In this document: positions 16,768 to 24,944 of the stretch, in pieces
How positions within the stretch are numbered: position 1 is the stretch's first letter
How the letters are laid out: each line of letters begins with the position of its first letter
Source of the DNA: a virus
DNA length: 25,168 nucleotides
Direction: 5' to 3' (one strand)
IMG/VR virus record: IMGVR_UViG_3300046491_000165
Location: 1-25,168 of that record
The notes under the pieces: generated by a model
Told to the model about the DNA's origin: nothing
The model's input: only the letters and a program-made list of their open reading frames with translations
Databases searched by the model: none
Position numbers and translations under genes: made by a program

Positions 16768-16841
16768 GCGTCACAAGCACTAAGGCGTCAAGGTGCTTAT
16801 GGTGCTTTCAGTGCTTTAGGCGCCTTGGTGCTATAGGTGCT
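16768..16841 (+). repeat. Half-site array A upstream of parA (candidate centromere/operator)
   Basis: Nine pentamers at 8-9 bp spacing: GCGTC at 16768, AGCAC at 16776, GCGTC at 16785, GTGCT at 16793, 16802 and 16811, GCGCC at 16820, GTGCT at 16828 and 16837. Start-to-start steps are 8, 9, 8, 9, 9, 9, 8, 9. AGCAC is the inverse of GTGCT. The array ends one base before the -35 box of the parA promoter. This layout suits cooperative binding by RHH dimers along one DNA face. It is not CRISPR (units too short). Iterons of an origin are an alternative, but no Rep gene lies in the window. Confidence 0.8.
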
Positions 16842-16842
16842 A

Positions 16843-16870
16843 TTGATTGATTCGCGCAACCCGTTATAGT
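16843..16870 (+). promoter_or_regulatory. parA promoter
   Basis: TTGATT (16843-16848) and TATAGT (16865-16870) are spaced by 16 bases, a good sigma70 promoter; the gene starts 45 bases after the -10. The half-site array abuts the -35, so autoregulation by the RHH partner is expected. Confidence 0.72.
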
Positions 16871-16915
16871 GCCCCCACTATCCAAGCCAGAATCACGCTT
16901 TCCCCAGGGGGTTAC

Positions 16916-17620
16916 ATGTCCAAGAATCAGCCAGCAACCCAGACACCTAGTGTCCCGCCGTTCGACCACACCGTTACCTACGCATTCCTCAACCAAAAGG
17001 GCGGCGCCGGTAAAACCACCAGTTCTGTCGGCTTCGGTGAGGCGATGGCGCTGGATGGTCACGATGTAGTTGTGGTGGACTCCGACCCGCAGGGCACTGC
17101 CCGTGACTATGAGGCAATGGGTATTTCCAACGATAAGCCGCTCGCGGTGCGCGTTGTTGGCATGGATCGCCCGGTGCTGGACAAGTCTGTACCGCCGATG
17201 AAAGAGCAGTTCCGCATTATCGACGGGGCGTCGAAGGCCAATGAACTGACTATCAGCGCCATCAAGGCCGCCGATATCATCATCATCCCTGTGCAGCCGT
17301 CCCCGCTGGACATGTGGGGCACCAGTGACCTGGTGGACCTGATCAAGATGAACATGGAAGCGCGCGAAGGCGGTAAGCGCCCGCTGAAGGCTTACTTTCT
17401 GATCACCCAGACCACGGAAGGTACGATTCTGGACGGCCTGGCAGAAGACGGCCTGTCGGGTTATGGCTTCCCCGTGCTGAAAACCCGATTGCACGACCTT
17501 GAGGACTACAAGAAAAGCGCCTTGGACGGCCGCACACCAATGACGGCCTATCCGCGCGGTGGCGCCGCCGCCGAGCTGCGCGCCCTCAAGGATGAAATCC
17601 TAGAGCTGTCTAGGCGCTAA
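16916..17620 (+). CDS. parA: ParA-family partition ATPase (type Ib)
   Basis: A 234-residue ATPase that segregates the plasmid. It has the deviant Walker A box KGGAGKTT (residues 28-35), the Walker A' strand VVVVDSDPQG (D57), and a Walker B-like strand IIDGAS (D103). The N-terminus is a short polar stretch with no helix-turn-helix domain, and the size is that of type Ib ParA proteins. The start is ATG 16916, just after AGGGGG; an in-frame upstream TTG/ATG extension would begin inside the promoter and is rejected. Its partner is the small RHH protein at 17722, with array B between them. Arrays of half-sites on both sides are the expected centromere. It should act on the nucleoid, hydrolysing ATP to move bound plasmid copies apart. 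Confidence 0.92.
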   Translation: MSKNQPATQTPSVPPFDHTVTYAFLNQKGGAGKTTSSVGFGEAMALDGHDVVVVDSDPQGTARDYEAMGISNDKPLAVRVVGMDRPVLDKSVPPMKEQFRIIDGASKANELTISAIKAADIIIIPVQPSPLDMWGTSDLVDLIKMNMEAREGGKRPLKAYFLITQTTEGTILDGLAEDGLSGYGFPVLKTRLHDLEDYKKSALDGRTPMTAYPRGGAAAELRALKDEILELSRR

Positions 17621-17668
17621 GGCGCCTACGTGTGTAAGGCGCTTATGGCACCAAGGCGCCTTTGTGCT
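17614..17668 (+). repeat. Half-site array B between parA and the RHH gene
   Basis: A more degenerate run of the same half-sites: GCGCT 17614, GCGCC 17622, GTGTG 17630, GCGCT 17639, GCACC 17648, GCGCC 17656 and GTGCT 17664, with steps of 8, 8, 9, 9, 8, 8. It begins inside the parA stop region. A TATGAT (17670-17675) directly after it could be a -10 for the RHH gene, but no good -35 pairs with it. The array may control the downstream partner separately from parA. Confidence 0.6.
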
Positions 17669-17721
17669 TTATGATGTTCCAAAGGCCGCCGGCCACCGTA
17701 TACCGAACCAGTAGGTGAAGA

Positions 17722-17940
17722 ATGAGCGACGAAAAACCTAAGCTACAGTCAGGCCGCCCGAGCGCTAAGGTTTCCAAGGAAAAGACACCGAAGGTCGAGG
17801 AAAAGGAAGGCATCGACCGCATGAACGTCCATTTCAAGGCCAAGAATGCCCGCAAGCTGCGCTTGTACGCGGCATCCTTGGGCAAGCGGCCGTCTGCCGT
17901 GCTGAATGAGCTGGTAGAAGCGTTGGAAATCGAAATCTGA
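17722..17940 (+). CDS. RHH centromere-binding partition protein (ParB/ParG/omega-type)
   Basis: A 72-residue basic protein downstream of parA. Residues 1-30 are disordered and rich in Lys, Ser, Pro and Glu. Residues about 32-72 fit a ribbon-helix-helix: ribbon RMNVHFKAK, helix A NARKLRLYAASLG, a turn with K-R-P-S, helix B AVLNELVEALEIE. Type Ib operons commonly end in such a protein, which binds arrays of short direct repeats as dimers and, through its flexible N-terminus, stimulates ParA ATPase. AGGTGA precedes the ATG closely. It is the obvious candidate to bind arrays A-D, including those at two distant promoters. Sequence identity to ParG or omega cannot be judged here. Confidence 0.8.
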   Translation: MSDEKPKLQSGRPSAKVSKEKTPKVEEKEGIDRMNVHFKAKNARKLRLYAASLGKRPSAVLNELVEALEIEI

Positions 17941-17962
17941 CGCGCGGGTAATTCCGCAACCC

Positions 17963-17989
17963 AAAAGGCGCCCGTGTGGCGCCTTTTTT
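17963..17989 (+). terminator. Terminator of the partition operon
   Basis: AAAAGGCGCC (17963-17972) pairs with GGCGCC (17978-17983) and then a TTTTTT run. A GTG inside it (17976) opens a longer frame of the next gene, but a start within a terminator is improbable. The downstream gene needs its own promoter, which I could not pinpoint; a hairpin (GCCCC/GGGGC, 18012-18029) lies in its leader. Confidence 0.88.
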
Positions 17990-23654: not shown

Positions 23655-23682
23655 TTACAGGGCGCAAATCCGGCACTACAGT
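23654..23682 (+). promoter_or_regulatory. Promoter of the 23717 gene
   Basis: TTTACA (23654-23659), 17-base spacer, TACAGT (23677-23682). The spacer is identical to that of the promoter at 24944, and both follow the same array, so the two are probably co-regulated. GGAG lies nine bases before the gene start at 23717. Confidence 0.75.
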
Positions 23683-23716
23683 AGGCTCGTCGAAACGAAC
23701 AACGGAGCAAGACGAG

Positions 23717-24034
23717 ATGACCACCAAGACCAGCCGCATCAACCCAATCAACACCGCTGCCGTGACCCATGAATGGGGCGTGGTGGACGCCAAAGGCCGC
23801 GTCATCGGCCTGCGCATCGACACTCGCGAGGTTGATTTTGTGGAGGTTGCCGACGGCGGCTGCTACTACCGCGTAGCTCCTGGTCACTACTTTTCCGCCA
23901 AAATGCAAACCACCAAAGACGGCAAGGCTTACGGCGCTACCCAGCCTGAGCACTACTTCGCAACAGCCGAGGAGCGTGCTACGGCCATCGTAAAGCGCCT
24001 GTCGGCAGCGATGAAAAAGACCGGCGCCATCTAA
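23717..24034 (+). CDS. Unknown accessory protein controlled by array C
   Basis: A 105-residue soluble protein that I do not recognise. The N-terminal half has a beta pattern (EWGVVDAKGRVIGLRID, then VDFVEVADGGCYYRVAPG), followed by a polar Lys/Thr segment and a helical C-terminus (ATAEERATAIVKRLSAAMKK). No signal peptide or membrane helix. It has its own promoter behind a half-site array and a terminator after it, so it forms a single-gene unit. Its control by the same sites as parA hints at a function tied to plasmid or phage maintenance or establishment, though nothing in the sequence shows what. Confidence 0.7.
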   Translation: MTTKTSRINPINTAAVTHEWGVVDAKGRVIGLRIDTREVDFVEVADGGCYYRVAPGHYFSAKMQTTKDGKAYGATQPEHYFATAEERATAIVKRLSAAMKKTGAI

Positions 24035-24050
24035 CCAACCCCGCCGCCTC

Positions 24051-24073
24051 AAGCCCCTTAACTGGGGCTTTGC
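24051..24073 (+). terminator. Probable terminator after the 23717 gene
   Basis: AAGCCCC (24051-24057) pairs with GGGGCTT (24064-24070) around a six-base loop, but the T run is short, so readthrough into the PAPS-reductase-like gene is likely; that gene has no clear promoter of its own. Confidence 0.62.
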
Positions 24074-24102
24074 CGGTACCAGAATTCAGCCAGAGCCAGC
24101 CC

Positions 24103-24867
24103 ATGACCAGCATTCAATCCGTCACCGACCAAATCGATAGCCTGATCGCGGCCGGTGCCTTGTTCGTCGCCAACCATTCCGGCGGCAAGGATTCCCAGGC
24201 CCAGCTTATTCGCCTCCTGGAGCGCGTGCCCGCGTCGCAGATGGTTGTAGTTCACGCTTCGCTGGGGGCGATGGAGTGGCCTGGCGCAATGGAGCTGGCG
24301 CGGGATCAGGCCGAGGCTGCCGGCTTGCCCTTCATCGTGGCCACCGCCACCAAGACCCTGCTGGAAATGGTAGAGCGCCGCTTTGAAGGCCGCCCCGAGG
24401 TGCCGAGCTGGCCATCTGCATCGACGCGCCAATGCACCAGCGACCTCAAGCGAGGCCCGATCCAGCGCGAAGTGCGCCGCTTCGCCAAGGCCAACGGCTA
24501 CAAGACCATCGTTAACTGCCTTGGCCTACGAGCCCAGGAGTCGCCAGGGCGCGCCAAGCGAAAGGAATTTAGCCAGATGGGTATCAGCAATAGCGTGCAC
24601 ACCTGGTACGAATGGCTACCCGTGCACGACCTATCCACTGCCGAGATATTCGCCACCATCGAGCAAGCAGGCCAGGCGCCGCACTACGCCTATGCACTGG
24701 GCAATGACCGCCTGAGCTGTGTGTTCTGCATCATGGCCAGCAAGAAGGATCTGGCCACAGGCGCCGCAAATAACCCTGGCCTTCTGGAGCAGTACGACGC
24801 CCTTGAGAAACGCACCGGCTACACCATGCACATGAGCCGTATTCCATTGATCGAGCTGGCTGCCTGA
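24103..24867 (+). CDS. PAPS-reductase-family (PP-loop) protein
   Basis: A 254-residue protein of the adenine-nucleotide alpha-hydrolase-like PP-loop superfamily. The loop SGGKDS is at residues 26-31. A CTSDLKRGPI motif (C111) and a CVFC pair (C206, C209) could bind a metal or Fe-S cluster, as in PAPS reductases and DndC-type proteins. Many phages and plasmids carry such genes outside sulfate assimilation; roles suggested include sulfur modification of nucleic acid and other nucleotide chemistry, and the function here is unknown. ATG 24103 is chosen over the TTG at 24070, which lies in the terminator stem; its ribosome site is weak. Without a promoter of its own, it is probably transcribed from the one at 23654. 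No other dnd-type genes are visible. Confidence 0.82.
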   Translation: MTSIQSVTDQIDSLIAAGALFVANHSGGKDSQAQLIRLLERVPASQMVVVHASLGAMEWPGAMELARDQAEAAGLPFIVATATKTLLEMVERRFEGRPEVPSWPSASTRQCTSDLKRGPIQREVRRFAKANGYKTIVNCLGLRAQESPGRAKRKEFSQMGISNSVHTWYEWLPVHDLSTAEIFATIEQAGQAPHYAYALGNDRLSCVFCIMASKKDLATGAANNPGLLEQYDALEKRTGYTMHMSRIPLIELAA

Positions 24868-24870
24868 GAA

Positions 24871-24944
24871 GCGCCATAAGCACTAAGGCGCCGAGGTGTT
24901 AACGGTGCTTTTAGTGCTAAAGGCGCCTTAGTGCCAAAAGTGCT
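24871..24944 (+). repeat. Half-site array D upstream of the 25004 gene
   Basis: GCGCC 24871, AGCAC 24879, GCGCC 24888, GTGTT 24896, GTGCT 24905 and 24914, GCGCC 24923, GTGCC 24931, GTGCT 24940. Steps are 8, 9, 8, 9, 9, 9, 8, 9, exactly those of array A, including the inverted AGCAC at the same place. It aligns with array A without gaps. Its last unit overlaps the -35 box. Confidence 0.82.

Follow-up and report, generated by a model that had tools for sequence, protein, structure and literature searches.

The ParG protein of plasmid TP228 binds both centromere and operator (PMC7308502), the Omega sites of pSM19035 overlap several promoters (PMC9499535), and KorB of RK2 combines a role in partition with repression of transcription on its own plasmid (PMC11790492, PMC5577506). 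The locus described here, which is to be compared with these systems, lies in a 25,168-bp stretch of viral DNA, IMG/VR record IMGVR_UViG_3300046491_000165 (hereafter the window, meaning the whole stretch analysed), in which a parA gene (16916..17620, + strand) and a gene for a 72-residue ribbon-helix-helix (RHH) protein (17722..17940, +) are accompanied by four arrays of short boxes, A and B at the partition (par) locus and C and D at the promoters of two accessory genes. Dispersed sites are also known from the phage-plasmid N15, which has several centromere sites, inverted repeats bound by the helix-turn-helix (HTH) protein SopB, and whose partition genes are reportedly, going by the title of a 2008 article by Ravin et al., linked to late gene expression; RK2 has many dispersed operators for KorB. 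The arrays of the window are likely to be binding sites of its RHH protein, with centromere function and repression at A and B and repression at C and D, and that protein very probably reads all of the arrays, as judged from sequence comparisons.

Arrays and partition module of the window

Array A (16775..16843, +) consists of eight boxes of the type RGYGCY, one extra box at 16777 and seven that start at 16785, 16793, 16802, 16811, 16820, 16828 and 16837, in steps of 8-9-9-9-8-9 bases, and it reaches the -35 element of a putative parA promoter (TTGATT-16-TATAGT, 16843..16870, +). Array C (23596..23656, +) has seven boxes with the same steps (23598, 23606, 23615, 23624, 23633, 23641, 23650), the last overlapping the -35 element of promoter C (TTTACA-17-TACAGT, 23654..23682, +), ahead of a 105-residue gene of unknown function (23717..24034, +). 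Array D (24869..24946, +) has nine boxes, two extra ones at 24871 and 24880 and seven with the same steps (24888, 24896, 24905, 24914, 24923, 24931, 24940), followed by promoter D (TTTACA-17-TAGAGT, 24944..24972, +), which has the same core as C, and by a gene of unknown function truncated by the window end (25004..25168, +). All three promoters are predicted by consensus match. Their sigma-70-like -35 elements abut or overlap the last box, and their -10 elements TATAGT (16865), TACAGT (23677) and TAGAGT (24967) lie 28, 27 and 27 bases after the last box start; positions and steps are as a preliminary description of the window had given them for these three seven-box arrays. Array B (17604..17670, +; boxes 17606-17668) occupies the parA-RHH gap, with an overlap onto the end of parA, and has eight boxes in steps of 8-8-8-9-9-8-8.

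Arrays were scored with a weight matrix from whose training the tested array was held out, and were compared with 60 first-order Markov shuffles each. Held-out scores were 76-80 (79.4 for A, 75.8 for C and 79.5 for D) against window-wide shuffled maxima of at most 24.5, while array B, never used in training, scored 55.7 against a shuffled maximum of 26.1. A strict four-box pattern occurred in one of 398 Pseudomonadaceae genomes, as did a reversed control pattern, and the mixed-step pattern was found in three stretches, each from this lineage, in a scan of 2.9 million viral contigs. The observation made in the preliminary description is confirmed.

The 234-residue ParA is ParF-like: it passes the cutoff of the NCBI model "ParA family partition ATPase" (NF041546, 185.2 against 180), matches the ParA-like phrog_164 and, in Pfam, gives only the ATPase domain (AAA_31/CbiA), with no N-terminal HTH domain found. 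The RHH protein, with an N-terminal GRP motif and the strand RMNVHF, matched nothing in Pfam or PHROG and nothing of weight in NCBIfam. Its family profile matched a single PDB sequence, ParG of TP228 (1p94), weakly (E=0.072); its predicted model (predicted local distance difference test, pLDDT, 68) has two helices at the RHH position, and in Foldseek the top match was again 1p94 and nearly all other top matches were RHH proteins, none significant by E-value. Plasmid proteins named ParG by PGAP were retrieved with tblastn at 37-44% identity. In ParF-ParG modules the RHH partner has a flexible N-terminal tail with an arginine by which the ATPase is stimulated; the N-terminal tail here is unstructured in this low-confidence model, and its GRP motif is invariant in alignment A6.

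The layout corresponds to that of type Ib partition loci: upstream of parA, array A repeats its box at intervals of 8-9 bp, the spacers being AT-rich, the ParA length falls in the range of 200-240 residues, and the RHH protein, despite weak ParG matches, is encoded directly downstream. The ACTC/TGAG box of TP228 ParG is absent from the window arrays, in which the box is RGYGCY. The same kind of pair, a ParA with an RHH protein of 65-73 residues and an AGRPS tail, is present in six Pseudomonadaceae genomes and in three plasmids, with TGAG/ACTC boxes mostly 8-9 bp apart both before parA and in the parA-RHH gap. Because these plasmid relatives share the architecture, the window module is supported as a type Ib module of the ParF-ParG kind whose box has been rewritten. 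No GTGCT arrays were found in three TGAG-box plasmids scanned whole, and no TGAG arrays in the scanned stretches (L014-L019) of two phage relatives, G003 and G004. Two plasmids carrying a ParG-type pair do have short TGAG-box arrays, placed either downstream of parG or at a distance from the par locus (L087 794-818; L089 11869-11885 and 13645-13661), and some dispersal may thus predate the phage family.

By the mechanism proposed, RHH dimers would bind next to one another at boxes 8-9 bp apart, like ParG on parH and Omega on its heptads. The complex at A and B would be the centromere of the type Ib module and the repressor of parA and the RHH gene. Since the last box overlaps the -35 element at C and D, protein bound there would block RNA polymerase and tie the two accessory genes to the RHH protein level. 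The same protein would read further arrays across the genomes of relatives. We infer binding and repression from these arrangements, as well as any role of the dispersed arrays in segregation; for every array, and most of all for C and D, a centromere role is a proposal.

Box type and RHH type in related phages

A ParA search yielded four relatives with the box of the window (T1), namely L007, L008, G003 (44 kb) and G004 (77 kb). Array A is kept in all of them, and all four T1 par loci have arrays both upstream of parA and in the parA-RHH gap. The preliminary description had also anticipated arrays elsewhere in the same replicon, and G003 and G004 have about five and about ten beyond the par locus. 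In both, a C-like promoter carries an array with a box again running into TTTACA, and other dispersed arrays sit inside genes or at gene ends. Their RepA is about 60% like that of an 81-kb Pseudomonas atacamensis plasmid (NZ_CP070504, hereafter ATA) that additionally holds phage structural genes and an integrase; from the common RepA and these phage genes, the most plausible reading of the family is that its members are phage-plasmids from Pseudomonas or closely related bacteria. ATA itself has two weak arrays, one directly upstream of its RHH gene (14271-14321) and one upstream of another gene (48333-48390), the latter also holding a long inverted repeat.

Other searches were less productive. 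The ParA search of genome contigs gave a single, unrelated match; the RHH search gave only TGAG-box plasmid-type pairs in the 398 Pseudomonadaceae genomes and nothing in 56 genomes of one genus; the par region had no blastn match in a phage collection, and the RHH protein had no tblastn match in phages.

A search begun from a methyltransferase gene that starts with a T1 array found 25 viral loci; 15 of them were read as full or nearly full records (G683 without its last 908 bases). Two further box types were recognised. In T2 records (G685-G687) the RHH strand is ERLN[SP]YV and the boxes are of AGCG type; in T3 records (G679-G681, G683, G684, G693) the strand is RFNAH and the boxes are ACGCGC/GGCGC; steps are mostly 8 bp in both. 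Only boxes from par loci went into the T2 and T3 matrices; the T1 matrix came from A, C and D. By type, the arrays beyond the par locus number 20 T1 and one T2 in T1 genomes, 14 T2 and six T1 in T2 genomes, and 29 T3 and one T2 in T3 genomes, so that 63 of 71 arrays match the RHH type of their own record. The T1 count includes C and D, also used in training, which leaves 18 clean arrays, three of them supplied by L086, a fragment in which the RHH gene was not found; G682, likewise a fragment with no RHH gene found, was assigned to T3 by its arrays, and its three arrays are no independent test. Five genomes without these RHH proteins have two arrays in 325 kb, and they may hold box types outside the three modelled.

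This covariation across genomes supports the earlier proposal that the RHH protein beside ParA is the reader of the arrays. It is improbable that a different, unlinked DNA-binding protein reads C and D: the genes downstream of both are uncharacterised, which would leave room for one, but the same box stands at the par locus, box type tracks RHH type across genomes, and phages of other RHH type have either no T1 arrays or cross-matches only. The RHH strand would set the box type, by analogy with known RHH-DNA recognition; its residues R33 and N35 are invariant in the RHH alignment, and position 37 varies, with H in the T1 phages, one of D, N and E in the plasmids, and Q in ATA. In a tree of the RHH proteins, T3 is grouped firmly, T1 is not one clade and the deep forks are weak.

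Array positions can be followed across box types. A gene for a small CxxC protein has an upstream array of T1 boxes in G003 and G004 and of T3 boxes in G680, G681, G682, G684 and G693. Retention of an operator position while its sequence changes is what coevolution of regulator and site would give. Inside a gene, at the methyltransferase gene start, there are T1 arrays in G003, G004, L085 and L086 and T2 arrays in G685-G687; the ATA ortholog of this gene start encodes MTDLSAGNLLSPIERARF and has no array there. In a looser count of periodicity, to which T1 arrays with their mixed steps are invisible, most T2 and T3 genomes had an excess at 8 bp and G688-G691 had little; a strict count overlooked degenerate arrays. 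Short runs of an ATCACA-like box in 8-bp steps, possibly a further box type, occur in G688 (49730) and G689 (44486).

Positions and possible roles of the dispersed arrays

Among the 63 dispersed arrays of their record's own type, 30 have a called gene start no more than 200 bp downstream (as do 7% of random positions) and 24 lie in genes (89% expected); the calls follow a simple longest-ORF (open reading frame) rule, under which C and D fell in the class "other" and some in-gene ORFs are probably spurious. The arrays are thus enriched at promoters but not limited to them, relatives having in-gene arrays and roughly a third or more of their dispersed arrays away from promoters. There is a substantial chance, a little short of even, that the dispersed arrays mostly form a regulon, in which the RHH protein regulates transcription at C, D and elsewhere and centromere function is limited to A, B or both. 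This would accord with the roughly sevenfold enrichment upstream of genes and with the overlap of the last box and the -35 element at C, D and the C-like promoters of G003 and G004, whereas promoter control is hard to see for the 24 of 63 arrays that the crude calls place in genes, tail-gene interiors included, and for others downstream of genes.

In G680, G681 and G684 parA is not beside the RHH gene, yet each record keeps four to five dispersed T3 arrays, which also favours a regulon, and for which a regulatory role is the simplest reading. The idea, taken from ATA alone, that dispersed arrays need an adjacent parA was ruled out by these three records. All three carry a second, MipZ-like ParA with its own partner elsewhere (G680 61121-61909, G681 20467-21228, G684 38881-39576), as do G688 (73742-74437), G689 (69336-70109) and G690 (3446-4150); a second ParA of ATA (17715-18377) is known by annotation only. 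Upstream of the second ParA in the six G records are dense GATATC/GGTAGC-type repeats, possibly the box array of a different partition system.

In-gene arrays are constrained at the DNA level: at each place tested, the observed score was unreached in 1500 synonymous recodings, a test that is weaker for 9-bp arrays, in which slippage could copy codons. The T3 arrays in a gene for a low-complexity protein have 8-bp steps, and in G682 an 8-codon peptide repeat has three boxes in three frames, which would not be expected from protein-level repetition. This constraint, together with the spread of arrays in G004 over as many as about 11 separate places in 77 kb, some of them within or downstream of genes, fits the rather unlikely explanation that the dispersed arrays are a distributed centromere like the multiple sop sites of N15, with promoter positions incidental or secondary; promoter enrichment, persistence without an adjacent parA, and the lack of in-gene arrays in ATA and in the window speak against it.

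An origin of the arrays in protein-level tandem repeats or slippage, or as iterons, is very improbable. A 9-bp-only pattern did find 48 stretches in viral contigs, with long runs in AT-rich contigs that resemble in-frame peptide repeats, and was set aside as weak evidence; slippage does copy codons. The window arrays are intergenic with mixed steps of 8 and 9, the T3 in-gene arrays with 8-bp steps traverse all three frames, and the mixed-step pattern is confined to the three viral contigs of this lineage. The iterons put forward as an alternative in the preliminary description lost ground because the RepA genes of G003 (9116-10186) and G004 (350-1372) have no array nearby.

Regulation is favoured for the dispersed arrays by their enrichment at promoters and by their retention in records that have no parA next to the RHH gene; with arrays inside genes, they may also serve segregation. 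A broader and more tentative suggestion is that the partition RHH protein might be a genome-wide architectural and regulatory factor, with arrays at orthologous promoters and in genes and with the whole set rewritten to a new box in each lineage; such rewriting could define incompatibility groups and let related phage-plasmids share a cell. In this family one regulator and the full set of its sites, in genes as well as at orthologous promoters, appear to have shifted in specificity together. Such a natural series lets one ask how a multi-site DNA-binding network switches specificity, whether compatibility of phage-plasmids depends on the partition box type, and in what way a protein that binds centromeres can persist as a regulator where no parA adjoins it.

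Several points weigh against taking the arrays as sites of the RHH protein with the roles proposed. The promoter cores of C and D are identical (GTGCTTTACAGGGCGCAAATCCGGCACTA) and A is alignable to both along the array. C and D with their promoters are duplicates, not independent evidence, and for INDEPENDENCE the caveat applies that the step pattern common to A, C and D reflects, at least in part, descent from one cassette, so that independent support must come from other genomes. The array types have a common GC-rich core, which gives T1/T2 cross-matches at six of 20 places in T2 genomes; the link of arrays to RHH type rests on few lineages, in which arrays are not independent but share descent; and several records are fragments. 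The ParG matches are weak (E=0.072) and the structure model is of low confidence, and the dispersed arrays of G680, G681 and G684 need not serve partition.

No end repeats were reported for the window, which often points to a fragment. Its genes for portal, tail, baseplate and lysin proteins are followed by parA, the 72-residue RHH gene, a 1604-residue ORF, a toxin-antitoxin pair (YoeB/Phd) and the array genes; a rep gene was not found in it. The YoeB-type toxin and Phd/YefM-type antitoxin adjoin array C (22846-23407, -), and G003 has a similar pair in the same place (L009 14486-15044). The product of the gene at 23717 had no Pfam, PHROG or NCBIfam match and no relative in viral contigs or fetched records. 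The truncated gene at 25004 has a homolog in G685 (82757-82915; 57% over 53 residues), about 480 bp downstream of a T2 array (82225-82272). Between C and D is a PAPS-reductase-like gene (24103-24867) with 82-86% identity to genes in ATA, G688 and G690, records without clear T1 arrays.

Comparison with known systems

KorB of RK2 differs from the RHH protein in belonging to the ParB-clamp family and in having palindromic operators. The sop system of N15 is alike in having dispersed sites in a phage-plasmid and differs in that SopB is of HTH type and not an RHH protein with box arrays. The Omega-Delta-parS system is closer, an RHH protein there reading arrays of 7-10 short repeats that overlap promoters and also act as parS (PMC9499535). 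It differs in its contiguous 7-bp WATCACW repeats and separate transcription units, against another box with steps of 8 and 9 in the window. We know of no in-gene arrays in the Omega system. As a model, Omega was apt in the preliminary description for the RHH protein and for arrays at several promoters, but ParF-ParG-parH of TP228 is nearer. There too an HTH-less ParA is followed downstream by a small RHH protein, boxes lie upstream of parA, and one protein serves operator and centromere (PMC7308502, PMC5016525); close sequence relatives of the window pair, moreover, have TGAG/ACTC boxes with 4-5-bp spacers. The window departs from TP228 in its GTGCT/GGCGCC box with 8-9 bp steps, in its phage-plasmid replicon, and in having further arrays at other promoters and, in its relatives, inside genes.

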